From Cerasicoccus arenae (GTDB lineage: Bacteria; Verrucomicrobiota; Verrucomicrobiia; Opitutales; Cerasicoccaceae), in the NCBI RefSeq assembly GCF_014651635.1, contig NZ_BMXG01000004.1, forward strand, positions 124,001-188,000: a stretch of 64,000 nucleotides of DNA, given 5' to 3'. A program made the translations under genes and the position numbers. Positions 3,685 through 26,757 of this stretch are shown one piece after another; the first letter of the stretch is position 1; each line of letters opens with the position of its first letter. A model generated the notes under the pieces. The model saw only the letters and a program-made list of their open reading frames with translations. It did not search any database and was not told the origin of the DNA.

Positions 3685-3692
3685 TTCTCAGC
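3673..3692. repeat. Near-perfect 20-bp palindrome across two convergent stop codons
   Basis: The core GAGAATTAATTCTC at 3676-3689 is a perfect palindrome. Both TAA stops lie inside it, so both convergent proteins end in Ala-Glu-Asn. It may form a short hairpin in either transcript but has no U-tract, so I do not call it a terminator. Confidence 0.85.
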
Positions 3693-9085: not shown

Positions 9086-9179
9086 AAATGCATGTCCATA
9101 ATGGGGGTGAATGACTGCCTATAAATGAGCATGCGAGTTTTTTAGAATGAACGAATACGGAAGCGTCGACCAAATCTCA

Positions 9180-10310: not shown

Positions 10311-11215
10311 CGACGTTTGAGGAATTTGAAATTCAAGTAAGGAGCTAGTAATACCCTCGGGTGAATTATTCCACGTGCAGCATGGCGTATTCTAGTTATT
10401 AATGACCTCGGAGCTTGAGGAGCTTCGGGATAATCGGTTCCAAAAATATCCCTCCAGCATTCTCGACTTTCCACTAACCGAACATCATCCATGGTTTCTG
10501 ATTTAGACAATGGGTGAAATCTGTAATATCCTAAAAATTGATTAATGAGATGGATTGGATATTTTGCATAAATTCGGCAGAAGAAATCTAGATCCAGGGC
10601 AAACGAAAGCGATTCATTGAATCCTCCTAGTTCGTCAAATGCCTGACTCTTCCAAAAGGCAGTTTCGGAGTTGATGTTATAGGGTGTCTCATCTGGATTA
10701 AAGGGAATGCTATGGCTCCAGCCAGCAACGTTGTCTGAAGCATCAATCAGAATACGTTCGCCGTGCACCAACATGGATTCAGGGTGCTGGGCGAATGTTT
10801 TTACAATACGGCTTATTGCGCCTTGAGCTAGCATGTCATCACTATTAAGAAATGACATGATGTCGCCGGTTGCTCTTTGAGCACCTTCATTAACGGCTGC
10901 AGATTGACCATTGTCTGAGTGGCTACGAGCATAGGCTAGGGCAGACCTGTAATGCTCAATGATCTCAGCTGAACCATCTTTACTTCCGCCATCAAGCACC
11001 AAGCACTCTACATTCGGATAATCCTGACAAAGGACCGACCGAATCGCAGCTTCCAAGTAATCAGCTTGATTGAAACTCGGAATAATAACGGATACCCGTG
11101 GAGTCTCTGATTCAATGCCGGTCAGTCGATTGACTCGACATTGAAACGGCCAAGCCTTTCTGGGCTTGAGAATAGGTATGTCAGTTGGCGTTGAAAGACT
11201 CATACCAATTTTCAT
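10307..11215 (-). CDS. Family 2 glycosyltransferase
   Basis: GT2 domain with VSVIIPSFNQADYLEAAIRS, then CLVLDGGSKDGSAEII, MSFLNSDDMLAQGAI (the DxD-equivalent SDD) and ALDLDFFCRI near the acceptor site. About 302 residues if the ATG at 11215 is used. That start has GGAA 8-9 bases upstream and gives a 35-bp overlap with the preceding gene; an ATG at 11203 is an alternative. An unusual feature is the N-terminal extension of about 40 residues before the catalytic domain. Sugar unknown. Confidence 0.83.
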   Translation of the reverse strand: MKIGMSLSTPTDIPILKPRKAWPFQCRVNRLTGIESETPRVSVIIPSFNQADYLEAAIRSVLCQDYPNVECLVLDGGSKDGSAEIIEHYRSALAYARSHSDNGQSAAVNEGAQRATGDIMSFLNSDDMLAQGAISRIVKTFAQHPESMLVHGERILIDASDNVAGWSHSIPFNPDETPYNINSETAFWKSQAFDELGGFNESLSFALDLDFFCRIYAKYPIHLINQFLGYYRFHPLSKSETMDDVRLVESRECWRDIFGTDYPEAPQAPRSLITRIRHAARGIIHPRVLLAPYLNFKFLKRR

Positions 11216-12425: not shown

Positions 12426-13525
12426 GGGCGACGGCTTGTTTGCTCGATTGCTTCAATGTAACGTGCAGCCATTATTTCATCGGTGTACTCACTGGACTTC
12501 ATCGATTGGAAGACCTGCTCCTGAAGATTTCTTCGGGTGCTTTTTTCATTAACGAGCTTATGGATAACCTGCGCCATAGATTTCGTGTCACTGATCTCAA
12601 CAACGAGCTGCTTATCCAACTTTAGAATGAAATCAAGAGGCTCGCCCACTCCGCTGTAGACAATTGGAATGCATCCTCGCCCCATCGCTTCTAAGAGAGC
12701 CATGGGGGTGCCTTCATATTCTGATGTCATCAAGATCACATCAGCCGCATCCATTGCCTCCCAGACTTTCGTTCGAGAAATTGATCCCGTCAAAGTAACA
12801 CGATCACCAGCAACGGAAAAATTCGATCGTAGCTTTTCACGCAACGAGCCTTCCCCGATAATTTGCAAGTGGAAATTAATGTTTAGCGATAGCAGTCGAT
12901 TGACCAGTGGAACCAAATCAGATGCTCGCTTTTGCTGATCCTCAAGCCTGCCACACCAGATGATTTCAATGGGGCCGTCTTGCGTTTTGCTGGATAGTTG
13001 GGAGGGGAGCGTTACGCCATTTGGAATCACTGATACTGAATGGTCTGCATCTAGCTGATCACACATAGCCTTGGCTTCTTTGCTAACCGAAATAACCGGT
13101 TGCCAGTAATCGCGATGATTTTTCCAGCGCGTCAGATTATCACTATCGGGTGAATGGACGACGCCGACCTGTTGAATGCCGGGCACATTACAGGGCCGCA
13201 AATAAGTTAAATGCCCACAAAAATAGATGGCTGGAGCCAAGGACTTGAGAATTCGTTTACACTGCCGATGCAAGTGAAGTCGCTGGAGGCGGGACCAATC
13301 ACGTCCTCTTGGTACAAGAACACGCAGGATTTGAGGAAGCGGATGGATACACTGCCGGGGGGTGAACAGTAGTGATTCATTACTCATCCGGGTCTTGCTT
13401 TCTAGCGAGAGGAACTCCACTCGATGACCCATTCGTTTAAGCCCTTGAGCTAAGAACCAATGGACGGAATCAACACCGGTAGGATCATCCGGTGAGACTG
13501 CAAAGATAAATGTTTTTACGCTCAA
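12422..13525 (-). CDS. Family 4 glycosyltransferase
   Basis: 367-residue GT4 protein: IEIIWCGRLEDQQKRASDLV begins the second domain, LQIIGEGSLREKLR and EYEGTPMALLEAMGRG contain the E-x7-E motif. It lies 5 bp downstream of the acyltransferase gene and overlaps the next transferase by 4 bp. Acceptor and donor unknown. Confidence 0.86.
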   Translation of the reverse strand: MSVKTFIFAVSPDDPTGVDSVHWFLAQGLKRMGHRVEFLSLESKTRMSNESLLFTPRQCIHPLPQILRVLVPRGRDWSRLQRLHLHRQCKRILKSLAPAIYFCGHLTYLRPCNVPGIQQVGVVHSPDSDNLTRWKNHRDYWQPVISVSKEAKAMCDQLDADHSVSVIPNGVTLPSQLSSKTQDGPIEIIWCGRLEDQQKRASDLVPLVNRLLSLNINFHLQIIGEGSLREKLRSNFSVAGDRVTLTGSISRTKVWEAMDAADVILMTSEYEGTPMALLEAMGRGCIPIVYSGVGEPLDFILKLDKQLVVEISDTKSMAQVIHKLVNEKSTRRNLQEQVFQSMKSSEYTDEIMAARYIEAIEQTSRRP

Positions 13526-13530
13526 TTCGT

Positions 13531-14589
13531 TTAGTATTGGAAGCGCCGCTTCAACTTAAGAATTGGTTTTTCAAACCAATGCCACGAAGTGGTGGCTAAT
13601 AGAAGCGTGAACACCGTCCATATCGGAATAAAGAGCCACGGATTTGTCATGGAATCGGAAGTGCCCGAAAGTGAAATAAATTTATATACGAAAAATAGAG
13701 AGATAAAATGGTATAGATAGATCCCATAGCTTATTTTTCCAAGGTAAACGAGTGGCTTGCAGTCTAGTATTTTCGGAAAGCGGCTCGTGCGCCCTTCGGT
13801 CGAAGTTGCCCAAGTGATACAGCCAATAAAGAAGATGCTGGATGCAAGTAGCCCTAAGGTCGGTCCTTGCAATGACCATATGGGTGCATGCATCGATCCG
13901 ATGTATACAATTGCAGCGATGGCCATCACCCCGATAAATATCTTATTCCACTGCTGCGCAATTCGCTGAAAGTTTCCATTGGATATCTGAGCGAGTATAG
14001 ATCCACCGATGAGTGCGTCGAGTTGGCTAGTGGGCAAGTTTCTAACCGAGAGGTAGTCCCAGCCTATGGAGAGTAATATGCCCCGAGATAAGACTGATAA
14101 GACAATGAGCAAAATGCTGATTTGCAACAGACGATTTGGTGATGGGAGAAGAACGATCCATGGCCAAATGAGGTAAAATTGCTCTTCAATACAGAGGCTC
14201 CAAATATGCCCAAGATATGGATAGTCGCCATTTGGCGAAACTGCTTGCTGGATATTGAATACGTACAGTAAGGCGCTGGCAAAAACTGGCAAGGTATACG
14301 TGACCCCAAATGCAAGGCACGTGAATAGCATTGCATAGTAAGGTGGGAAAATACGTAAAAATCGCCGTGCGAAGAATGAACGTATTATGGATGAAAAAGA
14401 GGATCCTCGCTTCTTGGATTCCAGCAAAATGCCGGTTATTAAATAACCACTGAGAACAAAAAAACATTGGACTCCCAATGCGCCCCATGAAAATAAGTGC
14501 ACGAAGGATGCTGCTGGTATATAATGTTCTACTAGAACACCAGTGACAGCGAGGGCACGAATCCCATCCAATTTCGGATAGTATTTCAT
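13531..14589 (-). CDS. Acyltransferase 3 family membrane protein
   Basis: Integral-membrane O-acyltransferase of 352 residues with about ten hydrophobic segments. Family landmarks: DGIRALAVTGVLVEHY with the R-x10-H pair (R11, H22), CFFVLSGYLITG, FFARRFLRIFPPYY and SLCIEEQFYLIWP. Such enzymes transfer acetyl or other acyl groups to sugars on the periplasmic side. Here it probably O-acetylates the polymer made by the surrounding glycosyltransferases. The gene is noticeably AT-rich compared with the flanking housekeeping DNA. Confidence 0.9.
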   Translation of the reverse strand: MKYYPKLDGIRALAVTGVLVEHYIPAASFVHLFSWGALGVQCFFVLSGYLITGILLESKKRGSSFSSIIRSFFARRFLRIFPPYYAMLFTCLAFGVTYTLPVFASALLYVFNIQQAVSPNGDYPYLGHIWSLCIEEQFYLIWPWIVLLPSPNRLLQISILLIVLSVLSRGILLSIGWDYLSVRNLPTSQLDALIGGSILAQISNGNFQRIAQQWNKIFIGVMAIAAIVYIGSMHAPIWSLQGPTLGLLASSIFFIGCITWATSTEGRTSRFPKILDCKPLVYLGKISYGIYLYHFISLFFVYKFISLSGTSDSMTNPWLFIPIWTVFTLLLATTSWHWFEKPILKLKRRFQY

Positions 14590-14616
14590 CTTAGAATTGG
14601 CCGGATGGAAGCGGCA

Positions 14617-15576
14617 TTAATCTAATTTCTTCAGGCAATCCGTGGAGACTCCGATTCGGCCCAGCATTGCGTCGATGAGCACTTGGTGCCGATCATATTG
14701 ATGTATGATTGGTATAATCGAGCCATCAAAATTTCTAACGAGGCCTTCTTCGTCCGGGAGGAAATTATCCACTGGTTCGTAGCCAAGAGTTAAGATCGGG
14801 CCGGATCCATTTTCCCAAATACGGTAATTCGAGACCTTCTCATTAACGATCATACCATTATGAGCGGCTTGGTCTGTTCCGTCTACATTAGTCATTCGGG
14901 CATTGGTGGCAGTGAGTTCGTCCGTCATGCTACGCAAATAATCTAAGATGCCCTCAGTTGTCCCTATCGTTGTGCCCGAACAGGATACGCGCCTCTCTGA
15001 ATGGCGTTTAAGATCCTCTTCGCCATATAGTCCACGAAACCAGAAGCTGTTGACGGGGCACGAACCAATCCGGGCATTGGGGTGCTCTAGGAAAAAGTTT
15101 AGCTCCGAATTCGTTGGGTAGCTGAAGGGATCAGCTTGAAAGAAAACATCACGGACATCAGTCAATAGGACATTGCTGAAGCGGTCCTTATTCGCAGCGA
15201 TATAGAGGTAGTAATACAAATACCGAGCACTGGTAATTTTCAGGTAATGCACTCCAACAAAGTTGCGGAAGCGCCGTTTTTGATCCTGATTGCCTGGCCA
15301 GTATTGAGAAAACGGCACATAGCTATGCAGCGGGATATTAATCCAATGCCGAGTGAAGCGTTTCTCGACAACAAATTGCGGCAAGAACTTCTTGAACTTT
15401 TCAACCTCAACTAAATTTATTTGATAGCCGTAATCCTTGGTCTCTAGAGAGGAAAGGCTATCGTTGATTAGAAGGCAGACTTCACCTGAAAAGTTTACTT
15501 GCTTGAGGCTTGTCAGAAACGGGCGAACATTCGCCTCAGTCAGATTGGTTGTACAACCAATGATCAGGTTTTTCAT
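14617..15576 (-). CDS. Unrecognised GT-A-like protein in the glycan operon
   Basis: 319 residues, no signal peptide or membrane segment. It opens MKNLIIGCTTNLTEANVRPF and has NVLLTDVRDVFFQADPF near residue 150, a DVRD stretch that looks like the DxD nucleotide-sugar/metal site of GT-A transferases. Later come SCSGTTIGTTEGIL and a NVDGTDQAAHNGMI segment, also reminiscent of GT8/GT77-type enzymes. I do not recognise the family with confidence. Position, between an acyltransferase and a GT61 gene with short gaps, supports a role in glycan assembly. Confidence 0.55.
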   Translation of the reverse strand: MKNLIIGCTTNLTEANVRPFLTSLKQVNFSGEVCLLINDSLSSLETKDYGYQINLVEVEKFKKFLPQFVVEKRFTRHWINIPLHSYVPFSQYWPGNQDQKRRFRNFVGVHYLKITSARYLYYYLYIAANKDRFSNVLLTDVRDVFFQADPFSYPTNSELNFFLEHPNARIGSCPVNSFWFRGLYGEEDLKRHSERRVSCSGTTIGTTEGILDYLRSMTDELTATNARMTNVDGTDQAAHNGMIVNEKVSNYRIWENGSGPILTLGYEPVDNFLPDEEGLVRNFDGSIIPIIHQYDRHQVLIDAMLGRIGVSTDCLKKLD

Positions 15577-15579
15577 TAT

Positions 15580-16662
15580 TTAATCGGTTGAGAGTTTCTC
15601 AGTCATGCTGGAAATAACTGTTAATAGCTGATCGACATCAACGACCAGATCTGCCTTTAACTCGCTCACCTCCTCTGGCGGGAAGTGTGGGCAGTAGGTA
15701 TAGTAGTAATCTAAATCTAGTGAATGCGCTAGGCGGAAGAAACAGGATGCCCAGTCGTTCAATTTTTGTATTTCAAGCACTTTGGCATCTGGTGGCAAAA
15801 AGAGCATGTTGGACAAGCCAGCTCCATGGATTCCAACAAAAAGCTCGGCATTCGCACAGAGCTTCATCTGTTCCAGTAGGCTGTAGTCTTCGAAATAGAC
15901 AGTTTGAAACCCGAGAGGCTTTAATGCCGATTCGACTTCGTCCTCGTTGATTATTTTTCGTTTGGGAGCTTTTTTTCGACTAATGAATAAGCGAGTTCGT
16001 TTCTTTGGGTTACGCTTAATGCCCGCCTGTTGAATGAGGTGGTCACGCAAGGCCTTCATGAGTGGCGGGTTAAATTGGTAGCCGCTTCCCATTTGGGAGA
16101 CCCATCGCATTTTTTTGAATTTACTGCGTGATGCGGGCTTCATCATATCGAACCGAACATCTGGAAAAAAGTTCAATGACTCATGGACGAAGCTTAACGG
16201 CTGGAGGCAACCTGGCAGGTAAATATGAGGTTTCTCTTGGAGCAAGCTTGCTAGGTAAATACGCGGTAGCGCCTCGACTAACCAATGATAGAAACCGATA
16301 GAGTAGGTGTCGGTGCACCAATAAACCTCGTTGTTAACGCGCTCCAATTTATACAGCAGGAAATCTCTCGCCCAGCGTCTTAGACGATGATCAGCGTAGA
16401 GGGCGGTCACGTTTTTCATCTCATCGTGGTCAGGCTGAAAGTAAAATGGATGTGATTCCAGTAGCGGCTGGAAGCGCTTGTAGATTATGCCCGTCGAAGA
16501 AACTAGCACATTGTGGAGCGTCTTGAGCTCCATCTGTGGGAGTGGTCGCTCAAAGTATGATTGGTAAATCCCACGGTGCTCATCATCCACATTACGCGGC
16601 AGCCAAGGGAGCATTGTACCGTGGCAATCGAAAACATTTTGAACTAAATCAGAACTATGCAT
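15580..16662 (-). CDS. GT61-family (DUF563) glycosyltransferase
   Basis: 360 residues. The C-terminal half carries the GT61/DUF563 signature: RTRLFISRKKAPKRKIINED, then FEDYSLLEQMKLCANAEL, FVGIHGAGLSNMLFLPP and KVLEIQKLNDW. A middle SIGFYHWLVEALPRIY segment (family HW...LPR) is also present. GT61 includes xylosyl- and N-acetylglucosaminyltransferases; the sugar here cannot be predicted. It overlaps the acetyltransferase gene by 8 bp and ends 3 bp before the next gene. Confidence 0.88.
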   Translation of the reverse strand: MHSSDLVQNVFDCHGTMLPWLPRNVDDEHRGIYQSYFERPLPQMELKTLHNVLVSSTGIIYKRFQPLLESHPFYFQPDHDEMKNVTALYADHRLRRWARDFLLYKLERVNNEVYWCTDTYSIGFYHWLVEALPRIYLASLLQEKPHIYLPGCLQPLSFVHESLNFFPDVRFDMMKPASRSKFKKMRWVSQMGSGYQFNPPLMKALRDHLIQQAGIKRNPKKRTRLFISRKKAPKRKIINEDEVESALKPLGFQTVYFEDYSLLEQMKLCANAELFVGIHGAGLSNMLFLPPDAKVLEIQKLNDWASCFFRLAHSLDLDYYYTYCPHFPPEEVSELKADLVVDVDQLLTVISSMTEKLSTD

Positions 16663-17263
16663 CCGTTGATGACTGAGCGTTTTTTATTTGAATGACAGCA
16701 GGAACTCCAACAGCAGTAGCTCCAGCTGGAACGTCGCACAACACCACGGCATTTGCGCCAATTTTTGCACCATCTCCAATTGTTATATCACCGAGCACTT
16801 TTGCGCCGGCACCAATAAAGACATTATTGCCAATCGTTGGGAGTTGGCCTGGCGCAAGATAGCCAACCGTCACTTGTTGATTAATCCAACAATTCGTGCC
16901 GATTTCGCGCGCGGCTATTATCGTGGAGAAAGCATGCTGGAGGAACATTCCGCCGCCAATTTTGTTAGCAGTTATATAGAGAGAGGTCTGTGGCGGTGTC
17001 ATGCGATTGCACCAAGCCAAGAGGCATTTTTTAACGAAGTTATTTGGCGCTCCAACGCGATAGTAGAACAGACTACGAAATTCCGGGAAGTTGTGGAAAC
17101 AATTAACGAAAGATTGCCGACTAAAAGTCGCGGAGTTGGTCCAGCGAAAAAGATCTTGGGCAATGACATCACGGCGGCTTGATTTTTGGAAAAGAAGCCA
17201 AGCGGGGTAGGCGAACGCTGCCGCTAATCGGCTAGTCGTCGGCGTATGTATTTCAGGCTGCAT
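16655..17263 (-). CDS. Left-handed beta-helix acetyltransferase (CysE/WcaB-like)
   Basis: 202 residues with C-terminal hexapeptide repeats (TIGNNVFIGAGAKVLGDITI, then GDGAKIGANAVVLCDVPAGA, ending GVPAVI), the fold of serine acetyltransferase and of polysaccharide acetyltransferases. The N-terminal 60 residues, with DLFRWTNSATFSRQSFVNCF, fit the serine-acetyltransferase-like group often found in capsule loci rather than a cysteine-pathway CysE. Likely acetylates a sugar or sugar nucleotide in the cytoplasm. A 44-bp gap precedes it. Confidence 0.82.
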   Translation of the reverse strand: MQPEIHTPTTSRLAAAFAYPAWLLFQKSSRRDVIAQDLFRWTNSATFSRQSFVNCFHNFPEFRSLFYYRVGAPNNFVKKCLLAWCNRMTPPQTSLYITANKIGGGMFLQHAFSTIIAAREIGTNCWINQQVTVGYLAPGQLPTIGNNVFIGAGAKVLGDITIGDGAKIGANAVVLCDVPAGATAVGVPAVIQIKNAQSSTDA

Positions 17264-17307
17264 GACGTGTCACTGGCGAATTGAGCTTCTGGTCATTCAT
17301 TTTCAAT

Positions 17308-18477
17308 TCAAGAGCGCTCCAATGCGCGGCGTAGTTGGGCGATGCTGTTATTATAGTAGTTGTGGTAGAGCAACCGAGCGGTATTGGCTATCTTCGGTAT
17401 TTCGTCGTATGAGTTCGCTAGATGGGTAATCTTATTGGCCATTTCTTGAGCGGAATCGACCACCAAATATGCTTCATCTCTGCCAGAATCAGGGAGGCCC
17501 TGTGCGCCGATTGTGGTTGTTAAGAGCGGACGAGCGTAGGATAGAGCCTCAACTGATTTGATGCTTAATCCTGATCCAGTCTGCGCGGGATTGATTACCA
17601 AATCGCAGGCAGCATACGCTTCCATTAATGAATCAACATGACCTAGGCTCACAACTTGTTCAGCGGGCCTTACATTTTTGCTAATCGAACCGCCAACCTT
17701 TAGCAAAATACTTGGGGAAGATTGATGGACTTTAGGCCAGACTCGATTGAGGAACCAATCAAGCGCTTGTCGGTTAATGGAGTTATCTGAGCCGAGAAAT
17801 AAGATGGAATTAAGTCCTGCGGGTGGGGGGAGTGGATTTGGCTCAGCTAAATGTCCAACGGTGTAGATGGCAGCTTTTCCTTTACCTATTTCGTTTAATT
17901 TTTTTGCCTCCCAGCCTTGGATTGCCAGAACTGAATTCGCTCGCCCAATGCCTTTTCGTTCTTCTGTTTTTGTCGTAAAAAACCATTCAGGAATCAGGCC
18001 CGCCTTGAGGAATGACTTATGCCGGTCCGAAAAAATGTCGTGTGTGTCGATTACGCGATGAACAGACGAAGGAAATGCAGAAAATGCGCGGGAGAAAAAC
18101 ACGTATTCAATCAGGACGACAGAAGGCTTGAACGAATTGTTAATGCTGCGAATTGAGTCCAGTACATCGTCGTTAAAGAAATAATCAATGTGCATCGAAG
18201 CCCAACCACGGGCGGCAAGTTGCCGAGTAAGCCTATCGGGAAGTGGAATGCCAGCGACGCGAATGTGTTTCCAAGGTTTATTGTATGGTAGCACTGTCAG
18301 TTTGTCGCCCCAGTATTTGCGCATTGCATCAAGATCGCCTGCTTCGAATGGGATGTAGGCCAAATGGATGTCATAGCCTAATTCGACGAGGAGGCGATGC
18401 ATGGCAAGAATCCGTTGTGCATTGCCACTGCCTACCGGATGAGTGGGGACCGGAGTGATGATTAAAAGTTTTTTCAC
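17308..18477 (-). CDS. Family 4-type glycosyltransferase
   Basis: 389 residues: MKKLLIITPVPTHPVGSGNA at the N-terminus with the Gly-rich loop, VVLIEYVFFSRAF, SILFLGSDNSINRQALDWFL at the start of the second domain, and SGLSIKSVEALSYARPLLTT at the donor site, a variant with a single clear Glu. This arrangement is seen in GT4 proteins of polysaccharide loci. It starts 3 bp after the upstream GT2 gene. Specificity unknown. Confidence 0.82.
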   Translation of the reverse strand: MKKLLIITPVPTHPVGSGNAQRILAMHRLLVELGYDIHLAYIPFEAGDLDAMRKYWGDKLTVLPYNKPWKHIRVAGIPLPDRLTRQLAARGWASMHIDYFFNDDVLDSIRSINNSFKPSVVLIEYVFFSRAFSAFPSSVHRVIDTHDIFSDRHKSFLKAGLIPEWFFTTKTEERKGIGRANSVLAIQGWEAKKLNEIGKGKAAIYTVGHLAEPNPLPPPAGLNSILFLGSDNSINRQALDWFLNRVWPKVHQSSPSILLKVGGSISKNVRPAEQVVSLGHVDSLMEAYAACDLVINPAQTGSGLSIKSVEALSYARPLLTTTIGAQGLPDSGRDEAYLVVDSAQEMANKITHLANSYDEIPKIANTARLLYHNYYNNSIAQLRRALERS

Positions 18478-18480
18478 TCC

Positions 18481-19404
18481 TTACCGGTATCGAATCATCG
18501 CATAGAGCATTCCAAGGCGCTGGTAGGCTTGCATTGCACGTTCGAGTTGCTCGAAATCGTTAATTTCACGAAAACGAAAATACCGCAAATCCTGCCTGAT
18601 AATTTGCTTTAGCAGTTGTACGAACCTGCGCATTGATTTCGTCTGGCGATTCAAATGCAATTCTTGGATTTCATAAGAAACACCAGACCAGAAATTTCGC
18701 TTGAGCATCCAGTTGGATGAACGTGTACGCTCTTCAAAAACAATATGAGAGACTAGCATCTTGGAGGTATACCAAATCTCATATCCCTTTGCTTCAATTC
18801 GTTGGCGTAGTTCATTGCCCTCGTTGGAGAGCAATTGATTTTTTTTCCGGCCGAGTCGGACAGTGAAGCCGCCAAATTCCTTTATCCGCGAAAGCCAATA
18901 GGCACAGTTGCCTTCTCCCAACCATTGATTTGAGGATGTCAGTTGAAAATCTCCTTCTCCCCAATGCATGCCGCTGTAGCAGCCGATGAAGCGCGGATGA
19001 TACCAGGAGGGGGGGGGGGAGTCCCAGTGTAGATTGATCGGCCCACCGAGCAGCCCCATGGTGCGATCGGTGTCAGCTTCAAAACGCTCTCTTAGGCTTG
19101 GCATCCATGTTGCATCAACCAGACAATCATCATCTAAGAAGGCTAGCACATCGCTTTTGGCCGCGTTGATTGCGGCATTACGCGCATGGGAGACACCGGC
19201 TTGTGGTTCGTAGACATGGATGATGGGGTTGCAACCAAATGACTGGCTTGCCAAACGTTCGGTCTCGAGATCAAGGCCGTTATTAATGATCAATATTTCA
19301 ACATCTGAGTCATTTCCAAAGTGCTCATGCCATCGCTTCAATGTTCGTTCCAACATCTGTGGGCGTCGATAGGTGCAGATGGCTACTGTGTAGGTGAGGG
19401 GCAT
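18481..19404 (-). CDS. Family 2 glycosyltransferase with a C11 tract
   Basis: 307-residue GT2: TYTVAICTYRRPQMLERTLK, then EILIINNGLD, VSHARNAAINAAKSDVLAFL followed by DDDC (metal site) and a later LSNEGNELRQRIEAKGYEIW segment. The frame contains an uninterrupted run of 11 C (coding strand) encoding Asp-Ser-Pro-Pro-Pro-Ser-Trp near residue 130, at a loop between the donor and acceptor parts. One-base slippage there would truncate the enzyme, so this gene is the best phase-variation candidate of the cluster. It lies 21 bp after the previous GT2. Confidence 0.86.
   Translation of the reverse strand: MPLTYTVAICTYRRPQMLERTLKRWHEHFGNDSDVEILIINNGLDLETERLASQSFGCNPIIHVYEPQAGVSHARNAAINAAKSDVLAFLDDDCLVDATWMPSLRERFEADTDRTMGLLGGPINLHWDSPPPSWYHPRFIGCYSGMHWGEGDFQLTSSNQWLGEGNCAYWLSRIKEFGGFTVRLGRKKNQLLSNEGNELRQRIEAKGYEIWYTSKMLVSHIVFEERTRSSNWMLKRNFWSGVSYEIQELHLNRQTKSMRRFVQLLKQIIRQDLRYFRFREINDFEQLERAMQAYQRLGMLYAMIRYR
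19009..19019. repeat. G11 run (C11 in the coding strand) inside a GT2 gene
   Basis: Eleven G on the plus strand, reading as a Pro-Pro-Pro loop in the glycosyltransferase. Surface-glycan transferase genes are the classic place for slippage-driven phase variation, so this tract deserves read-level inspection. Confidence 0.95.
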
Positions 19405-19425
19405 GGGATATTTAGTCAGTAACTG

Positions 19426-20385
19426 CTAGTTGAATAGATTCTGCTTTAATCTGCGTAACCAGTTCAGGTCTTTGTGGTCATGGAGCATTAGTCGTAGCTG
19501 CGTATAGCGGTCATCCGGCTTGACCATCCATGATATCGCTTGGCGGAAACAGCGGTTGTGGAAAACCGATTTGGTCGAACATTGGCTGCTTTTAGCAATT
19601 GTTTGCGCAATTCGTTTGAGGATTGGGTATGCCCGATCTTGTTGCCGACATCGTAATGAGTAGGCATTCTCTGCACTGATGCCATACGCATCCATGGCGT
19701 TTTCAGCGAAGTTCCGAATAGCAAAATCCTGATTGCCTGGATCAACGCCATAGGCCTCGCTCGTGCTGGCTGGATGTCGTCGATATTCAACCGTTGATTC
19801 TGGCATATTCTTAATGGAGTGGTGGGCCGATATCCGCACTTGCAGATCGTAGTCCTCGCACTTCCTGTCGCGGAAATTTCCAACAGACTGAACCGCTGAC
19901 TTTTTAAGCATTATGGTATTTTGCGCGTAGGCATTTGCGCGCAATAACGTGCATCGAATATCCAAATCGGTGAGCGGGACGCCAAATGCTTGGTTGATTG
20001 GTGTTCCCGTATGATCAATCAAAGACACACTTGAACCGAAAAATGCGAGCTCGGGATATTTTTCCCAGAATGCCAATTGTCGTTCAAATCGATTTGGCAA
20101 ACAGCGGTCATCGGCATCCATCAGAGCACAAGCTTCGGTTGGAGATTCATCAATGAGCGCTGCGCGACTTAAGCCAAGTGGAAGTGGTTGGTTGAGAAAA
20201 ACCTTACCTGGTAGTCGATTCGGTATCCAATGCTTCAGGCATTCACGTGTGCCATCGGTCGAGCCGTTATCCCATACGTAAACATTGAAGTTCGTGATGC
20301 TTTGTTTCGTGAAGCTGTCCAGACATTCTTCTAGAAAGGGCATGGCATTCAGCACCGGCATGAGCACCGTGAAGGCAGGGGTCAT
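19426..20385 (-). CDS. Family 2 glycosyltransferase
   Basis: 319 residues: FTVLMPVLNAMPFLEECLDS, VYVWDNGSTDGTRE, ACALMDADDRCLPNRFERQL (DADD metal site around residue 90) and RKCEDYDLQVRIS (ED acceptor-side motif). The order defines a GT2 domain similar to chondroitin-synthase/exopolysaccharide transferases. It overlaps the FkbM gene by 4 bp, so the two are translationally coupled. Confidence 0.88.
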   Translation of the reverse strand: MTPAFTVLMPVLNAMPFLEECLDSFTKQSITNFNVYVWDNGSTDGTRECLKHWIPNRLPGKVFLNQPLPLGLSRAALIDESPTEACALMDADDRCLPNRFERQLAFWEKYPELAFFGSSVSLIDHTGTPINQAFGVPLTDLDIRCTLLRANAYAQNTIMLKKSAVQSVGNFRDRKCEDYDLQVRISAHHSIKNMPESTVEYRRHPASTSEAYGVDPGNQDFAIRNFAENAMDAYGISAENAYSLRCRQQDRAYPILKRIAQTIAKSSQCSTKSVFHNRCFRQAISWMVKPDDRYTQLRLMLHDHKDLNWLRRLKQNLFN

Positions 20386-21350
20386 CGAGCGTTTTTATTC
20401 GGTTTAATGCCGTAAATCATGCCAGACGTTTGATCGTCCGTCCACTCGGACTTGAGTAAGATGAATCCGGAATCGAGTAATGTTTGGGCGATTTGCTTGG
20501 GATGCTGGTCCTTGTCGACGACGTGCCACTCCATCATAATGCAAGCGATCCTGTCCCATGTTGCTGAGTTGCTTAGCTCTTCGAGGATCGCGTATTCACT
20601 GCCCTCGGTGTCCAGTTTCATGATCACCGTTCGTTCGGGATGCGCTGAAATTACTTCTTGAATCGCCGTTGATGCCTGCCTGACCTCGATGGTGATTTCT
20701 TCGCAATCGTCGGCATGGTCCCGCTCTGTCAGCACCATTGATGAACGACCGCGGCGGGAATGGTTTAGTAAGAATGTATGCTTTCCGTCTTCATGGTAGA
20801 GACCAAAATTATGGAGATGAATCTTGGCTTCCACATGTTGATTGAGTGCTAAATTGCATTGCGCTCGTTTATAGGTTTCCGGCGCGGGTTCAAAGCCATG
20901 AATGATGACATCATCCAGTTTGTTGGCTAAGTAAATCGATGAATAGCCGACATTGGCACCGACATCAAGGATCAGAGCAGGACCCGCAAGGTCTAGGTCG
21001 TAATCCTTGGTCATGAAAACTTCATAGAGGACATAAAATTCTTCGCTGGTGCCGACGTTGAACCGGCAGGCATTCACGGTTGCGATAAATTCATCATTGG
21101 CGGAAAGCTGGATTTTTACTCCATTTAGCACTAGCTGGTGGATCCAGTTATAGCCTTCCAATATAATGCTGATGGCAGCCTTAGATTTCAGCTCGAGCCC
21201 AAATTCAGGAATGGAGATTCCGTTGTCCTGCACGGAAATGGAACCCAACGGAATATGGTTCTTGAGGATCGTTTCTCGCCAAGGCTCAAGATACGCAGGG
21301 AAACGATTTCCCTCGGTTTTGAAAAGCTTCCGGAATAGTTTGCACATCAT
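20382..21350 (-). CDS. FkbM-family SAM-dependent methyltransferase
   Basis: 322 residues. SAM-binding motif I is ALILDVGANVGYSSIYLA, followed by IIHGFEPAPETYKRAQCNL, and the family motif is VIMKLDTEGSEYAILEEL. FkbM enzymes in polysaccharide loci methylate sugar hydroxyls. Next to a Wzm/Wzt exporter with a C-terminal substrate domain, a methyl group at the chain end could be the export and length signal, as known for some E. coli O antigens; here that is inference. The gene lies 3 bp downstream of wzt. Confidence 0.9.
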   Translation of the reverse strand: MMCKLFRKLFKTEGNRFPAYLEPWRETILKNHIPLGSISVQDNGISIPEFGLELKSKAAISIILEGYNWIHQLVLNGVKIQLSANDEFIATVNACRFNVGTSEEFYVLYEVFMTKDYDLDLAGPALILDVGANVGYSSIYLANKLDDVIIHGFEPAPETYKRAQCNLALNQHVEAKIHLHNFGLYHEDGKHTFLLNHSRRGRSSMVLTERDHADDCEEITIEVRQASTAIQEVISAHPERTVIMKLDTEGSEYAILEELSNSATWDRIACIMMEWHVVDKDQHPKQIAQTLLDSGFILLKSEWTDDQTSGMIYGIKPNKNAR

Positions 21351-21353
21351 CTG

Positions 21354-22583
21354 CTAGGATTGAGGATTGTGGTTTTGGCGAAATTCAAATGGCACCGTTA
21401 GCAGTGCATTGAAGCCCGATGAACGGCATTCCGGGTAATCTGCTTGTGCGATTACACTGATGGCTTTGATTCGATCTACCTGTAAAAGCGGGCCGAGCTG
21501 TGGGTGATGGACATAAACCGTCGCGAAATAGTCGCCCGGTTTGAGCGGTGAGCATTCTAAGGTGTAGGTAATGCTGACGGGCTTGTCGCCCGTGCATTGG
21601 GCAGAATATTGATGGGGCAGACTGACTAGCTGTAGTACGCGGACGTTCTCCTGAGTCTCAAGCGCCATATCGATGTAAAGCTCTGGAGGGGCAGCTTTGG
21701 CATCGAGAAGTATCGTAAATTCAATCCGGCAGGTTGAGCGATCAATATACTGATAGGTGGCGTTGAAAGAGGTTAGTTTAAGACGTCCATCGTTAATTAT
21801 GACACGTCCATCAATTTTCATTTCCTCCGATTGGAGGTAACGGCGCATGACTTGATGAGCTGGCCCGTCGGCAACGATCTTTCCCCTTTCTAAGAGAATA
21901 GCGCGGGTGCAGAGGCTTTCGATCGCAGAGCTGTTATGGCTGACAAAGATGATGGTGCGGCCATCCTCTTGGATGCTACGTATCATATTGAGGCACTTCT
22001 CTTGGAATCGCGCATCGCCGACGGCTAAGACTTCATCGACAATCAGGATGTCTGCATCCAAGTGGGCAGCGACCGCAAAACCCAAACGGACAGTCATCCC
22101 CGATGAGTAGCGTTTAATAGGCGTATTAATGAATTTTCCAATTTCTGAAAACTCAACGATACGGTCGAACTTCTGAGCGATCTCGTCTTTGCTCATCCCC
22201 AGGACCGCCCCTGAAAGGAAAATATTATCACGGCCCGAAAGCTCGGGGTGGAAGCCGGTGCCGACCTCAAGGAGCGAAGCCACTCTCCCGCGAAGAGTTG
22301 CCTCACCCGATGTGGGTTCGGTGATGCGCGAGAGGATTTTGAGCAGCGTGGATTTACCGGCTCCGTTATGGCCAATGACGCCAAGGATCTCGCCCGTTTT
22401 CACCTTAAAACTTACGTCATCCAAGGCGCGTAATTCATTACCGTTCTTATCGGCTGTTTTACGCGAACGACCGCGCAGTGATTGCCATACAGCGCTCAAT
22501 TCCTCGCGTAAGCTGCCCGCTCCAATTTGACCAAGCCGGTAGCGTTTGGAGATGTGGTTTACCTCAATGATGGGTTCCGTCAT
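21354..22583 (-). CDS. wzt: Polysaccharide ABC exporter ATPase with C-terminal glycan-binding domain
   Basis: 409 residues. The N-terminal ATPase domain has Walker A GHNGAGKST, signature YSSGMTVRLGF, Walker B ILIVDEVLAVGD and the switch histidine in FVSHNSSAI. After about residue 245 comes a beta-rich domain of about 160 residues, as in Wzt proteins that recognise a modified chain end. It powers export of an undecaprenyl-linked glycan through Wzm. It overlaps wzm by one base (TGATG) and is followed by the FkbM methyltransferase gene, which could supply the recognised cap. Confidence 0.93.
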   Translation of the reverse strand: MTEPIIEVNHISKRYRLGQIGAGSLREELSAVWQSLRGRSRKTADKNGNELRALDDVSFKVKTGEILGVIGHNGAGKSTLLKILSRITEPTSGEATLRGRVASLLEVGTGFHPELSGRDNIFLSGAVLGMSKDEIAQKFDRIVEFSEIGKFINTPIKRYSSGMTVRLGFAVAAHLDADILIVDEVLAVGDARFQEKCLNMIRSIQEDGRTIIFVSHNSSAIESLCTRAILLERGKIVADGPAHQVMRRYLQSEEMKIDGRVIINDGRLKLTSFNATYQYIDRSTCRIEFTILLDAKAAPPELYIDMALETQENVRVLQLVSLPHQYSAQCTGDKPVSITYTLECSPLKPGDYFATVYVHHPQLGPLLQVDRIKAISVIAQADYPECRSSGFNALLTVPFEFRQNHNPQS

Positions 22584-23428
22584 TAGACCGTGTCGATGAA
22601 AGTTCGCTGGACGCGTTGGAAGAAATAAAGAGCGATGACCAAAATGATCCCGGTCGCAACGGTGGAAAATATGAGCGGTATGCCGGGTGCGCTGCCAGCA
22701 TCAAGCAGCATCCACTTCGCCGTGCTGATTGGGGCAGCCATAGGATTCAGCCAGACCATCCAGCGCCATTGCTCGGCGATCGATGAAACGGGATAAATGA
22801 CTGGTGTTGCGTAAAGGCCGAGTTGTACTAGGAAACCGAGAGCATGTTGCAGGTCGCGGTATTTCGCAGTAATCGCGGAGAATCCTAAACTGATGCCTAA
22901 GGATAGAGTGATTACTAGGATTAGAAGAAACGGAAACCAGAGCAACCGTTGCCAGTGGAATACCGCGGTCTCGCTTCCTGTGAAATACCAGATGCCGAAG
23001 CCTGCATAGATGAGTAGCTGAATGGTAAAAGGAATCAGCTGCGAAATCTGCGTCCCGAGTGAGGGGATGATCCGAGGAAAGTATACCTTGTTGAAGAGTG
23101 ACGCATTGTTTTGCAGAGAATTACCGCCCGCTAACACTGAGCCGGAAAACAATTGCCAGAAGAGCATTCCAGTCAGGTAAAAGAGGAAGGGGGGGGCACC
23201 GTCTGTTGGTATTTTGGCGACTTTTCCAAATATCACGGTGAACACCAAGGAGGTCGCCAAGGGTTGTACAATCGCCCATGCTGGCCCGAGAATGGTTTGC
23301 TGATAACGCGCAACGAAGTCGCGGCGTATGATTAGCAAGAGCAGATCTCGGTAGCCGCTCAGTTCCTTCCAATTTAATAGCGTGATCCGGCTAGCTGGTT
23401 GGATCTTGATTTCGTAAGATTTATCCAT
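22583..23428 (-). CDS. wzm: Polysaccharide ABC exporter permease
   Basis: 281-residue ABC-2 type permease with about six hydrophobic segments: LLLIIRRDFVARYQQTILGP at the N-terminus, then FLFYLTGMLFWQLFSG, IIPSLGTQISQLIPFTIQLL and LGLYATPVIYPVSSI, typical of Wzm/TagG proteins. It forms the membrane channel for the glycan energised by Wzt. It overlaps the upstream membrane protein by 8 bp. A G8 run at 23189-23196 encodes Ala-Pro-Pro-Phe in the first periplasmic loop. Confidence 0.92.
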   Translation of the reverse strand: MDKSYEIKIQPASRITLLNWKELSGYRDLLLLIIRRDFVARYQQTILGPAWAIVQPLATSLVFTVIFGKVAKIPTDGAPPFLFYLTGMLFWQLFSGSVLAGGNSLQNNASLFNKVYFPRIIPSLGTQISQLIPFTIQLLIYAGFGIWYFTGSETAVFHWQRLLWFPFLLILVITLSLGISLGFSAITAKYRDLQHALGFLVQLGLYATPVIYPVSSIAEQWRWMVWLNPMAAPISTAKWMLLDAGSAPGIPLIFSTVATGIILVIALYFFQRVQRTFIDTV

Positions 23429-24812
23429 GGCGCGTATTTACTTCGCGAGATTTGATGTTGTTGGTGACACATGCCGATAGCACCAGACCGGCTGAAAGTA
23501 TGCTAAACCCGAGCGTGGTTTGCTGTCCCCATTGCCCACTGAGAACGAGAAACATGCACGAAGAAAATATGAGCCAGGGCAATATGTTACCCTTTTTGAG
23601 AGCTCCCAGCGCGTATATGACGAGCATCACTACGAGCGAGAAACGCAGCATAATGTAGAGATAGCCGAACAGGGGGCCAATTTCCGCCATGATACGCCCC
23701 CATTCACTTTCGCCGCCAAGGAACTGGCGTTGGCCCACGGACATTTTGGCACCAACGTTTGTTCCAATGCCTAGGCCCAAGCCGATTGGCGAACTGAAAT
23801 CCGGATTAATCAATGGCGTGAGCAGCTCGCCGAACGTGCGCTCCATCAGTGCTTCCTCCGCGGTATCTTCACCACCCTTGGCTTGCTCCCAACGCGCCAT
23901 AAACGTTTCGACTCCATCTGAGAAGTAGGTGAATTGTGAGGCGATTAGGAAAAACACGATCATCGCCAGAGCGACCTTGAAGGTATTGTGGAGTTTACTT
24001 CCGTTAATGATCAAGCCGATCACACCGAAGACAAACACAAGTAGTACTGACAGAGCAAGCAGTCGGCTGATTGATCCGTAAATCGCCATCACAAATGAAA
24101 CTCCAGTCGGGATCAAGAGCCAGAGAGGCAGGGTCCGCCGGCTGATGTACTGTGCCATGAAGAATGCGAAAGTGAGTGTGTAGTACTGGGCCACGCCTGT
24201 AATAAAGCTAAACGTACCGGGTGGGCGGAATCGACCTAACGCTCCGGTAAAACCGGCACCTTCGACGCCCCCCACGCTACGATTTACCCATGCGGTTTGT
24301 GGCGCATAAAACTGGATGCTGATCAAAACTGTCATCGGTATGACCATGAATAGTAGAAAGCGTCCGATCTTTTCCGTATCGTCATAGTCGAGAACTTTGG
24401 GAAAGATAAAGATTAACGGTATGGCGAAATAATTGACCATAGTTCCGTAGATGGCCACGGGTATGCTGCCATGGGCTACGAGGGCCATCGGCATGGTAAT
24501 GAGCGCCAGTAAAAGCGTTACCATCACGAATCCATTGACCACGAATGCTCGCGCTGGAATTGCTAGCAAATAGATGGCGGCGATGACGGGCATGCGCGAA
24601 ATCAACAGCACGTCTGACAAACCCGGCAGGAACCATTTGCGCAATGATCCATCGAACATCAGCAGCAGAATATAAAGCCAAATGAGGTATTTGAGCAGTG
24701 ATATGATGCCTGGCTTACGCGGTTGCCTGGTTGGTTGTTCATCGGCTTGAGGTTTAGCTGGCAAACCAAGCCCGTCCGACCCTTGACGCCGTGGCTTTTT
24801 AATCAGGGACAT
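23421..24812 (-). CDS. Polytopic O-antigen polymerase/ligase-like membrane protein
   Basis: 463 residues, 10-12 hydrophobic segments after a charged N-terminal tail of about 50 residues rich in Pro, Arg and Lys. The layout, with a large extracytoplasmic loop after the middle helices (a region around ERTFGELLTPLINPDFSSPI, then GLGLGIGTN), resembles Wzy polymerases and WaaL ligases, which share no strong motifs. In a Wzm/Wzt system no polymerase is expected, so a ligase role or an exosortase-type Wzy-like role is possible. The ATG at 24812 shares its A with the TGA stop of the upstream gene; a start further upstream would overlap that gene by 78 bp. Confidence 0.7.
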   Translation of the reverse strand: MSLIKKPRRQGSDGLGLPAKPQADEQPTRQPRKPGIISLLKYLIWLYILLLMFDGSLRKWFLPGLSDVLLISRMPVIAAIYLLAIPARAFVVNGFVMVTLLLALITMPMALVAHGSIPVAIYGTMVNYFAIPLIFIFPKVLDYDDTEKIGRFLLFMVIPMTVLISIQFYAPQTAWVNRSVGGVEGAGFTGALGRFRPPGTFSFITGVAQYYTLTFAFFMAQYISRRTLPLWLLIPTGVSFVMAIYGSISRLLALSVLLVFVFGVIGLIINGSKLHNTFKVALAMIVFFLIASQFTYFSDGVETFMARWEQAKGGEDTAEEALMERTFGELLTPLINPDFSSPIGLGLGIGTNVGAKMSVGQRQFLGGESEWGRIMAEIGPLFGYLYIMLRFSLVVMLVIYALGALKKGNILPWLIFSSCMFLVLSGQWGQQTTLGFSILSAGLVLSACVTNNIKSREVNTRHG

Positions 24813-25564
24813 CAGCTCAATCCCCCTTGGATGGCAGGAGACTCTGCGCCGTATCGCTTGAGAAGTCTCCAAAGCCGCCGCGCATTCCAATAGCGTGACA
24901 CGTAGCGCTTGGGATCATGGAAAATGCGCAATAGCCACCCGAGAAAAAATCGGTCGCCCCAACTCGGAATATTGGCTTGTTCGCCGGTTAGAAAAGCAAT
25001 CGCGGCACCGGTGCAGATGATCGCAGGGCGGTATGGCAAATTCTCCATCAGCCAAGCGCCTAGGACCTCTTGTTTGCCACCCGCGACGTTGATCATGATC
25101 AGTCGTGGCTGTTGTTGGCGGATGCGTTGCAGTAACTCTTGGTCTTCTATTTTCCCCGTGGGATAATATGGAGCCGTATAAAAGCAATCCGGTGAAAGCG
25201 TGACGCCTTGGTCAGCCAAGTAAGTGCGGGTGCGCGTTGCAGACTCCATGGTCGGCATGACCCACAACTGTTCGGATTCACTTTGAAATGACTGACTCGC
25301 CAACATTGTTTCCACAAGAAGAAGCCCGGAAAGCCGCGAAAGCCGCTGCCCCTGCTGCATCCGCCAGCACAAAACGAGAAAGCCGCTATCGAGAACGATC
25401 AAGTCGGCCTTGTTCAAAGCGTGATGATACATCGGCGCTAGATCCATCTCTGCCAGATTGGGGCCAGAAGGTGCCACGGTGAGACCGCCCTTGAGCGCAA
25501 GTTCGATCGCCGAGGACGCCGTCCCTTGGTAAAAATCAATGCCGAGCACTCGTGTCATTGCCAA
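24812..25564 (-). CDS. WecG/TagA/CpsF-family glycosyltransferase
   Basis: 250 residues. The first half has VLGIDFYQGTASSAIELAL and VAPSGPNLAEM. The second half shows the family blocks LIMINVAGGKQEVLGAWLME (usual xGxGxPkQE), ICTGAAIAFLTGEQ and WGDRFFLGWLLRIFHDPKRY (usual gLEW..Rl..ePkR). The normally conserved proline of PkQE is replaced. The family transfers ManNAc-type sugars to lipid-linked GlcNAc, an early step. It is the first structural gene after the ops-like leader, which fits an early-acting enzyme. Confidence 0.87.
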   Translation of the reverse strand: MAMTRVLGIDFYQGTASSAIELALKGGLTVAPSGPNLAEMDLAPMYHHALNKADLIVLDSGFLVLCWRMQQGQRLSRLSGLLLVETMLASQSFQSESEQLWVMPTMESATRTRTYLADQGVTLSPDCFYTAPYYPTGKIEDQELLQRIRQQQPRLIMINVAGGKQEVLGAWLMENLPYRPAIICTGAAIAFLTGEQANIPSWGDRFFLGWLLRIFHDPKRYVSRYWNARRLWRLLKRYGAESPAIQGGLS

Positions 25565-25592: not shown

Positions 25593-25604
25593 CACGCTGC
25601 CGCC
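25593..25604 (-). promoter_or_regulatory. ops-like element in the leader of the polysaccharide operon
   Basis: On the minus (transcribed) sense the sequence reads GGCGGCAGCGTG, one base different (C for T at position 6) from the E. coli ops core GGCGGTAGCGTG that recruits RfaH to a paused RNA polymerase. It lies 28 bp upstream of the TagA-like start codon and about 107 bp downstream of the stop of the RfaH/UpxY-like gene. The C3G4/C9G10 pairing that closes the small ops hairpin in the non-template strand is retained. The changed base corresponds to one that RfaH contacts in E. coli, so specificity may differ. Match seen directly; function inferred. Confidence 0.55.
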
Positions 25605-25661
25605 TTTGGCCGGATGCGTTGTAACGCAAAGCCAATCGATTCTAAGCGGAACTGTGGGTAA

Positions 25662-25710: not shown

Positions 25711-26259
25711 TTATTGACCGGACAGTGGGTTTTCAAACATGCGCTCTATCGAATCCATTGGCAGGACGATTTCTTGTTCGCGGCCTAAGATTTCCAAGAG
25801 CACTTTGACTCGCTCGGCGGATGGCGCGAGGCTGATGATTTCCGCCTCAGTGCCGGAGAAAATACCTTGGATCAGGCGGACTCGTTCGCCGGGCATGAGC
25901 GGGCGCGGTTCGAGGTCAAGCACCCCATCGGGAGCGAGCAGGCGAATCTCATCGATCAAGCTTTGGGATATGGACACGAGTGCTTCGCCCCGCTTAATGA
26001 TGTAGGCTACGCCTTGAGAATACTGGACCGAGCGGCAGGCTAAGACCGGCGCGAATCGACAAAAAAGGTATCCAGGGAAAATCGCTTCGCTGGTCACCCG
26101 TTTGCCTTTGTTAGTCTGTCGTGGATAGCGAACGAGCGGGAGGAAAGACTCGACTTGAGGTAACGTGAGCAAAGTCTTGTAAGCATTGCGTTCACGTCGA
26201 GGCTGCGTCTTCACGCAAAACCAAAGTGCTTGATCGCTGCTGGGGGGAATTAACGGCAT
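25711..26259 (-). CDS. NusG-paralogue antiterminator (RfaH/UpxY-like)
   Basis: 182 residues with an N-terminal NGN domain (LWFCVKTQPRRERNAYKTL, then EAIFPGYLFCRF and VQYSQGVAYIIKRG) and a C-terminal KOW domain (LMPGERVRLIQGIFSGTEAE). The sequence is that of a specialised NusG paralogue rather than housekeeping NusG. Such proteins ride with RNA polymerase and suppress pausing and polarity over long surface-glycan operons; UpxY members are encoded in cis. It lies 3 bp after a GbsR/MarR-like gene and just before a leader with an ops-like element, so it probably controls the 23-kb operon it sits in. Confidence 0.9.
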   Translation of the reverse strand: MPLIPPSSDQALWFCVKTQPRRERNAYKTLLTLPQVESFLPLVRYPRQTNKGKRVTSEAIFPGYLFCRFAPVLACRSVQYSQGVAYIIKRGEALVSISQSLIDEIRLLAPDGVLDLEPRPLMPGERVRLIQGIFSGTEAEIISLAPSAERVKVLLEILGREQEIVLPMDSIERMFENPLSGQ

Positions 26260-26262
26260 GCT

Positions 26263-26757
26263 TTAGAAATTAATGAACCGCGCGATGGCTGGCGTTAGTC
26301 TGCCTGCGATGCTGTGCAGACGGCGCAATTTGTCAATCCGCGCGCGGTAATGGATGGCGTCGGCTTCGCTGGAGCTCTCGGCCAAGCGCGTCATATGGTC
26401 AATGGCGTCTCGGCCCACTTCAATATGAGGGCTTAATTGGTCTTCAATGAAATTAGCAAAGAGCTTTCGGAACTCAGTTTCTGGCAGATAATGGTCCTTA
26501 CGCTCACCGGGGATATAGGTCACACGGATTGCTTTGAGGGTACGCAGTTGTCGTAAGCCTTGGCTGGCAGAACCCAGACTGATGCCTAGGCGCGAAACAA
26601 TGTCATCCATCGTTAATGGGCGAGGGGAGATGTAAATCAAGCCGTATATCTGGCCAATGGACTTCGGCAGGCCCAACAGTTGCACAAGGCGGACAAAAAG
26701 CGCCACTGCCTCCGATTCGAGCTCGGATAACTCAGTCTCTGCGGGAGCATCATCCAT
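26263..26757 (-). CDS. GbsR/MarR-like winged-helix regulator
   Basis: 164 residues. The segment IGQIYGLIYISPRPLTMDDI, then VSRLGISLGSASQGLRQL with the recognition helix, and IRVTYIPGERKDHYLPE is the GbsR pattern. The C-terminal 60 residues form a helical, probably dimerising tail. First gene of the polysaccharide operon, 3 bp upstream of the NusG paralogue, so it likely autoregulates and controls operon initiation. The ligand cannot be told from sequence. Confidence 0.87.
   Translation of the reverse strand: MDDAPAETELSELESEAVALFVRLVQLLGLPKSIGQIYGLIYISPRPLTMDDIVSRLGISLGSASQGLRQLRTLKAIRVTYIPGERKDHYLPETEFRKLFANFIEDQLSPHIEVGRDAIDHMTRLAESSSEADAIHYRARIDKLRRLHSIAGRLTPAIARFINF

Follow-up and report, generated by a model that had tools for sequence, protein, structure and literature searches.

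We found that an ops-type core in a leader of Cerasicoccus arenae most likely belongs to a recruitment element of JUMPstart/ops type that serves the NusG paralogue whose gene lies directly upstream, within an RfaH/ops-type regulon in Verrucomicrobiota, a reading to which we assign a probability of about 0.8. It is favoured because the element is conserved after the paralogue gene, its hairpin carries compensatory changes, further copies stand in trans, many of them ahead of genes typical of surface-carbohydrate work, element and paralogue co-occur, the layout resembles JUMPstart, and the predicted structure of the paralogue has RfaH with ops DNA as its top match, a NusG structure being similarly close. 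It is weakened because the residues with which E. coli RfaH reads ops are replaced and because the core is biased by the training of the model that found the sites. From this combination we infer recruitment, pausing and antitermination by the paralogue. The window is the whole stretch of 64,000 nucleotides that was analysed, and its features are collected in Table 1.

An ops-type core between a NusG paralogue and a putative polysaccharide gene cluster

The core, GGCGGCAGCGTG, lies on the minus strand at 25604-25593, downstream of the NusG paralogue (stop at 25711) and ahead of a WecG/TagA-type glycosyltransferase ORF (25564, or ATG at 25558). It matches the E. coli ops sequence GGCGGTAGCGTG at 11 of 12 positions, with T6 replaced by C as the sole mismatch, and is the only match with at most one mismatch in the whole window; the form GGCGGTAGCNTG with T at position 6 is absent from the window, C standing there. 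The first-pass annotation had described this match, in the transcribed sense and with position 6 changed, which the sequence confirms. Its chance estimate of about 3 in 10,000 for one 146-base leader also holds, as Markov chains of order 1, 3 and 5 fitted to the window (40,000 draws each) gave 2.5e-4, 4.3e-4 and 7.5e-5 for a match with at most one mismatch, and uniform bases gave 3.0e-4. The hairpin stem that it took to be kept has to be redrawn: the pairing of C3G4 with C9G10 is off, structure and function support C3:G8, and this site retains both of these bases. When both strands of the entire window are counted, 22 of 100 shuffles contained at least one one-mismatch match; at that scale the match taken alone is weak, a lead only, and it becomes significant because it is conserved in relatives.

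The same-strand ORFs at 3681-24890 include, as named by sight, glycosyltransferases, an acyltransferase, an ABC-2 permease and ATPase, and others. GC content is 0.45-0.48 within this putative polysaccharide operon (window 8001-20000) and 0.485 at 20001-22000, versus 0.51-0.57 in the rest of the window; the low values at 8001-20000 fit acquired genes of the kind that RfaH serves in E. coli.

Table 1. Features of the window around the ops-type core, in window coordinates.
Feature	Coordinates	Strand	Basis
Ops-type core GGCGGCAGCGTG; position 6 is C, not T as in E. coli	25593..25604	-	Sequence; conservation in 73 sites
Conserved hairpin 5' of ops; outer stem UUGGCU/GGCCAA, inner stem UGC/GCA (here extended to UGCGU/ACGCA)	25606..25635	-	Covariation; predicted leader fold
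Full extent of the hairpin-ops element in model R1; 60.3 bits, E 3.7e-16 (one of the 20 training rows)	25594..25638	-	Covariance model
Specialised NusG paralogue, RfaH/UpxY-like, 182 aa; proposed loading factor	25711..26259	-	NCBIfam scores; Foldseek
GbsR/CudC-like HTH regulator gene, 164 aa; heads the unit	26263..26757	-	NF047500, 62.6 bits, below the cut-off of 218
WecG/TagA/CpsF-family glycosyltransferase; nearest gene downstream of the element, probably starting at ATG 25558	24812..25564	-	ORF and family scan
Run of at least 19 same-strand ORFs, each at least 150 aa, after the element; putative target operon of about 22 kb	3681..24890	-	Operon status inferred from spacing

The core as part of a conserved hairpin-ops element

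Comparison with relatives placed the core as the 3' third of a larger conserved hairpin-ops element, in which the RNA hairpin abuts ops and whose consensus is CGATTGGCTTTGC-loop-GCATCCGGCCAAGGGCGGYAGCGT. We built a covariance model, R1, on 20 elements beside a NusG paralogue and scanned an order sample of 132 genomes, in 59 of which the paralogue was called at E<=1e-10. At E<=1e-4, R1 found 54 sites in 34 of the 132 genomes, 20 of them the training rows; together with 19 sites from a phylum scan they make up a set of 73 sites, 31 in cis and 42 in trans.

Within the 20 training elements, 98.3% of the cells of the 9-pair hairpin are paired and five of the nine pairs show two-sided changes, and none of 500 shuffles reached either value. 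Over the 73 sites the paired fraction is 95.2% versus a shuffled mean of 80.6% (reached by 0 of 500 shuffles), 100 cells are changed on both sides versus a shuffled mean of 23.8, and the outer pair 8:77 occurs as UA in 33 sites, CG in 32, AU in 3 and GC in 1, with two sites unpaired and two gapped. Since the 73-site alignment was fitted to R1, sliding controls matter here, and no slid version pairs more than 49.6%. When whole pairs with two-sided changes are counted over the 73 sites, the shuffles do as well (272 of 500 reach the same count), which counts against the main reading. Compared with plain letter shuffles, the hairpin parts of the 73 sites have a mean folding z of -2.6 (63 of 73 below -1.5); the whole leader of the window, folded alone, does no better than usual (z -1.13). 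Four of the sites (L260, L261, L262 and L264) look like false positives by poor stem or loop fit; they were left out of the arm-spacing and Shine-Dalgarno counts and stayed in the 73. A second element in one genome (G061, L163:13301-13349), about 9 kb from the first, has kept its core and has an offset outer stem (UCGGGU/ACCCGA possible).

In the 73 sites, ops positions 2-5 and 7-9 are invariant, G1 is present in 72 and T11 in 71, and position 10 varies, an invariance that is partly due to training, as the sites were found with a model that favours those positions. Position 6 is C in 50 sites, T in 20 and A in 3. Judging from these alignments, the element appears to have kept the bases for pausing and for the hairpin, the base read by RfaH being C or T and the pocket residues of the factor being different. 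Among the 37 leaders lacking the element, a search for ops without hairpin gave one good case (G036) and one poor case (G084); in the former (locus L071) the core GGCGGTAGCTT stands 68 nt past the paralogue stop without the conserved hairpin.

Association of the element with the NusG paralogue

The first-pass annotation had proposed enrichment of the motif beside NusG-paralogue genes as a test, and enrichment is what we found: the element lies no more than about 120 nt past the stop of the paralogue in 10 of 10 family genomes and at 21 of 59 order-sample loci (one of these, L084, is unreadable at a contig edge). Of the 19 phylum-level sites, 10 have the same cis layout, in a further family of the class and in a different class of the phylum. 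The further suggestion of the annotation, that a cis-encoded factor uses an ops-type element, stands as far as the tie between element and paralogue goes and fails as to use in cis only, as 32 of the 34 new order sites stand away from the paralogue gene, with one beside it (G039) and one at a contig end (G079). With these 32 sites, the factor, like RfaH, probably serves a small regulon.

In the order sample, 32 of the 34 element genomes have the paralogue versus 59 of 132 overall (Fisher 3e-12, a value that is too small given the relatedness of the genomes). In the phylum sample (387 genomes, paralogue in 92), the paralogue is present in 24 of 24 element genomes at E<=1e-5, or 19 of 19 minus the five training genomes, and none of the 295 genomes without paralogue has an element at that cut-off. 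Looser cut-offs gave 27 of 31 element genomes at 1e-4 and 35 of 51 at 1e-3, and the 4 and 16 element genomes without paralogue count against the association. The two samples share some genomes, and the E cut-offs were picked after the lists were seen. Element genomes without paralogue are G069 and G079 in the order sample and G207, G258, G272 and G288 in the phylum sample at 1e-4; G069 is listed as 81% complete, and the paralogue of G079 may be missing from the assembly, its site being at the very end of a contig. The pairing is not universal, since 27 of 59 order and 65 of 92 phylum paralogue genomes show no element at E<=1e-4, stricter filters there losing weak matches. Five genomes of family f20 (G129, G097, G074, G118 and G028) have the paralogue with no element after it, with a stop inside the match in G097 and G118, and the paralogue may have another role in this family.

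An exact pattern (TTGGCT, gap, GCCAAGGGCGGYAGC), which would miss E. coli JUMPstart, was found in 60 stretches over 84,980 species genomes. Of these stretches, 39 score at least 40.5 bits with R1 and are all titled Opitutae/Opitutia/Opitutales, Puniceicoccales, Cerasicoccus, other Verrucomicrobia or Akkermansia; the other 21 score at most 27.8 bits, two of them titled Verrucomicrobia. Strong elements (42 bits) also occur on contigs titled Akkermansia muciniphila (L189 and L231), possibly misassigned metagenome bins.

Genes behind the trans sites

The genome of C. arenae itself has three candidate elements at E<=1e-4, on contigs C4, C13 and C2, one in cis and two before other operons, and thus shows several separate genomic sites, as is the case for RfaH. 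The C13 element precedes a SIS-domain (GmhA-like) gene followed by heptose kinase-like and sugar epimerase-like genes, and the C2 element precedes ABC-2 permease-like and ATPase-like genes (all named by sight); the C2 permease-like gene has no Pfam match and resembles the first gene of another locus (L130), which has one. Both operons look like surface-carbohydrate operons.

A Pfam scan of one early downstream ORF at 30 of the 42 trans sites, the other 12 lying outside the scan, assigned 21 of the 30 ORFs to families commonly involved in making or exporting surface carbohydrates (Epimerase 5, SIS_2 4, ABC2_membrane 4, Wzz 3, ABC_tran 2, and one each of nucleotidyl transferase, sugar transferase and glycosyltransferase). 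The remaining nine fall outside such families, three of them without any Pfam family. The scanned ORF is not always strictly the first: at L168 and L178 a nearer ORF, whose longest form crosses the element, was skipped, and at L169 an opposite-strand ORF was once listed. At L168 and L169 the element lies near sulfate-activation genes (PAPS reductase, APS kinase), which may hint at sulfated polysaccharides. Shine-Dalgarno pairing is no weaker in the first genes after the element than in later genes (63 versus 152 genes, p=0.30; 63 of 73 sites usable), so targets lacking a Shine-Dalgarno sequence, a hallmark of RfaH on its ribosome-loading side, are unsupported here.

The NusG paralogue

Among NCBIfam models, the window paralogue scores best with RfaH (TIGR01955, 81.6 bits), followed by UpxY (NF033644, 66.9), NusG (42.3) and LoaP (NF033641, 37.9), with all four scores under cut-off (RfaH needs 144.5, UpxY 100 and LoaP 125). 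The one other NusG-domain gene in the genome lies on contig C24 between EF-Tu-like and L1-like ORFs (neighbours identified by sight), so the housekeeping NusG is separate. The top Foldseek match of the AF2 model is RfaH with ops DNA (5ond, TM 0.55/0.72), and a NusG structure (8f5g) ranks fourth (0.58/0.60). In NusG, beta-barrel strands are expected where the model (pLDDT 70.6) puts one C-terminal helix, at residues 147-157; residues 121-142 are below pLDDT 50, and a second model is alike. As evidence of a fold switch the models were set aside, confidence in the C-terminal domain being too low.

When E. coli RfaH binds ops, it flips T6 into a pocket made up chiefly of H20, R23, Q24 and R73; the C3:G8 pair is important as well (excerpts of PMC5995543). 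In a MAFFT alignment the ops-contact residues of E. coli RfaH are replaced in the window protein (K10 by Q, R16 by N, H20 by T, R23 by T, Q24 by L and R73 by Q); one row of this comparison (L259_ph) was a wrong ORF chosen through a motif search and was ignored, and L250 gave none. At the autoinhibition positions, E48 is kept and F130 is I. Among 32 order genomes, 8 of 9 with K at residue 10 have T at ops position 6 only, and 19 of 23 without K have no T at all. This coupling was dropped as evidence, as all eight K/T genomes belong to one family and K goes with C in two phylum-level loci.

Alternative explanations for the element

The strongest rival holds that the paralogue, like LoaP, recognises the RNA hairpin and not ops DNA, the ops-like core being just a consensus pause. 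The clear covariation does sit in the hairpin, the residues that read ops in RfaH are missing, and LoaP, also a cis-encoded paralogue, needs a leader RNA hairpin (excerpts of PMC12691694). We still consider it unlikely: ops positions 2-5 and 7-9 are the same in 73 of 73 sites, which we judge to be beyond the need of a plain pause, training bias being part of that count; the hairpin loops differ in sequence and length among the 73 sites, unlike the UNCG-type LoaP hairpin; and the LoaP family score is far under its cut-off.

The inverted repeat could instead be a DNA operator of the adjoining GbsR-like HTH protein, with the ops resemblance incidental. An HTH homologue lies within 2.6 kb of 53 of the 73 sites, namely at 30 of 31 cis sites, where it stands ahead of the paralogue, and at 23 of 42 trans sites, where it is directly upstream in 20, ending 23-101 nt before the element, and downstream in 3. 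These counts may be too low, HTH and paralogue neighbours alike, as flanks at the phylum-level loci extend for only about 1.5 kb, and L182 has none upstream. We nonetheless rejected an operator on the spacing of the outer arms, which takes every value from 17 to 26 nt (69 sites), a range ill-suited to a dimer operator. The nested inner stem covaries too (73 sites), and several sites, such as L121, L130, L131 and L132, have no HTH gene nearby, so that this explanation appears quite improbable. The HTH gene stands directly ahead of hairpin and ops in the window (26263-26757) and at L120, L122-L126, L128 and L163-L181, also where no NusG paralogue adjoins.

A leader attenuator or riboswitch-like RNA acting independently of the paralogue would account for a structured leader RNA ahead of biosynthesis operons and for the 65 of 92 phylum paralogue genomes that lack the element at E<=1e-4. 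It is very improbable, as none of the 295 genomes without paralogue has the element at E<=1e-5 and no Rfam family reaches its gathering score in the window; an intrinsic terminator was rejected because no T-run follows the hairpin. A chance ops match in one leader, to which the 22 of 100 window shuffles would lend some colour, is refuted by conservation, covariation and repeated occurrence in the comparative data and is scarcely conceivable.

Proposed mechanism of recruitment

Under the RfaH/ops-type reading, a promoter upstream of the HTH gene would transcribe the HTH gene and the paralogue, and expression of the factor would be independent of loading at its own site, because the factor gene precedes that site. 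As polymerase enters the leader, the RNA hairpin would form and polymerase would pause at the ops core; were it to stop at U11, as the E. coli enzyme does, 12 nt would separate the stem base from the RNA 3' end. Hairpins of pauses like that of his have a spacing close to 12 nt, and the templates on which the ops pause was compared with a hairpin-stabilised one presumably lacked the JUMPstart stem. In E. coli, U11 is the last RNA base at the pause, and the ops pause differs from a hairpin-stabilised pause (both from excerpts of PMC11001881). We hypothesize a composite pause of hairpin and ops. By analogy with RfaH, the N-terminal domain of the paralogue would bind ops, including the C3:G8 pair, on the exposed non-template strand, and the factor would then ride with polymerase and displace NusG/Rho silencing, so that the polysaccharide operon of about 22 kb would be read through. 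The same factor could load in trans at the copies before other surface-carbohydrate operons, and the HTH protein may control initiation where the paralogue controls elongation.

A more specific proposal, which we hold tentatively and at less than even odds, is that the signal is read in two media, as an RNA hairpin at the spacing of an exit-channel pause and as a non-template ops DNA loop, by a factor that lost or never had the T6 pocket and that forms a two-layer control with the HTH protein. If true, such a composite signal would make JUMPstart/ops old and cross-phylum, not gammaproteobacterial, and would explain the stem-loop of E. coli JUMPstart.

Comparison with known systems

RfaH is about 95% proteobacterial and found in 23 of 117 phyla, which may include Verrucomicrobiota, and in 2020 the recruitment of NusG paralogues encoded in their own target operons was called unknown (both from excerpts of PMC7593976); for LoaP, later work has shown a leader hairpin (excerpts of PMC12691694). 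In the literature searched, made up of excerpts and excluding supplements, we found no ops or JUMPstart in Verrucomicrobiota. The cis-encoded paralogue described here comes with a defined candidate site that is conserved and varies naturally.

Several known systems share parts of this arrangement. In RfaH cluster CL4 (Wang et al. 2020) an HTH regulator gene adjoins, whereas the excerpts of its description contain no ops element (PMC7593976). ActX of conjugative plasmids is an RfaH homologue encoded inside the long operon that it is thought to serve (excerpts of PMC13250579 and PMC7819879), but its operons are for conjugation, and those excerpts give no recruitment site for it, whereas a candidate element is identified here. 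The first-pass annotation had regarded a cis-encoded factor with an ops-type element as a hybrid not yet described; as to the cis-encoded RfaH-type factor, ActX came earlier, its mechanism being called unknown in excerpts of PMC13250579. LoaP of Bacillota is likewise encoded near its operons and works with a leader RNA hairpin (excerpts of PMC12691694); the present system differs in having no UNCG-type loop, in its ops core and in its score of 37.9 against 125. UpxY of Bacteroides is a cis-encoded NusG paralogue of polysaccharide operons, and the window protein has a moderate score of 66.9 bits with its family model (below the cut-off of 100), but UpxY is described as acting in the 5' leader upstream of upxY (excerpts of PMC7819879), whereas here the element follows the gene, is of ops type and recurs in trans.

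The closest likeness is with RfaH/JUMPstart (RF01707), listed for Gammaproteobacteria with a conserved stem-loop by Weinberg et al. (excerpts of PMC2864571). Cross-detection is weak: RF01707 (gathering score 35 bits) has no match in the window and gave two below-cut-off scores (25.7 and 21.2 bits) on 19 loci from the window's genome and relatives, and R1 scores two E. coli JUMPstart sites at 20.8 and 13.9 bits. Here the factor gene stands directly upstream of one of its sites, the stem-loop is longer, an HTH gene module is present, position 6 is mostly C and the T6 pocket residues are replaced. In both systems, leaders of polysaccharide or LPS operons carry a stem-loop abutting an ops core, and one NusG paralogue goes with several separate sites. 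The galF-rfbB and waaQ leaders of E. coli (60.0 and 55.2 bits with RF01707) close their stem with CCAG or CCUG, directly followed by GGGCGGUAGCGUG, and in the verrucomicrobial element the 3' arm, ending in CCAA, abuts GGGCGGYAGCGT in the same order and spacing of stem and ops. The verrucomicrobial elements, with C6 or T6 and with hairpin present or absent, offer a test case for the evolution of ops recognition and predict a surface-polysaccharide regulon in a little-studied bacterial group.
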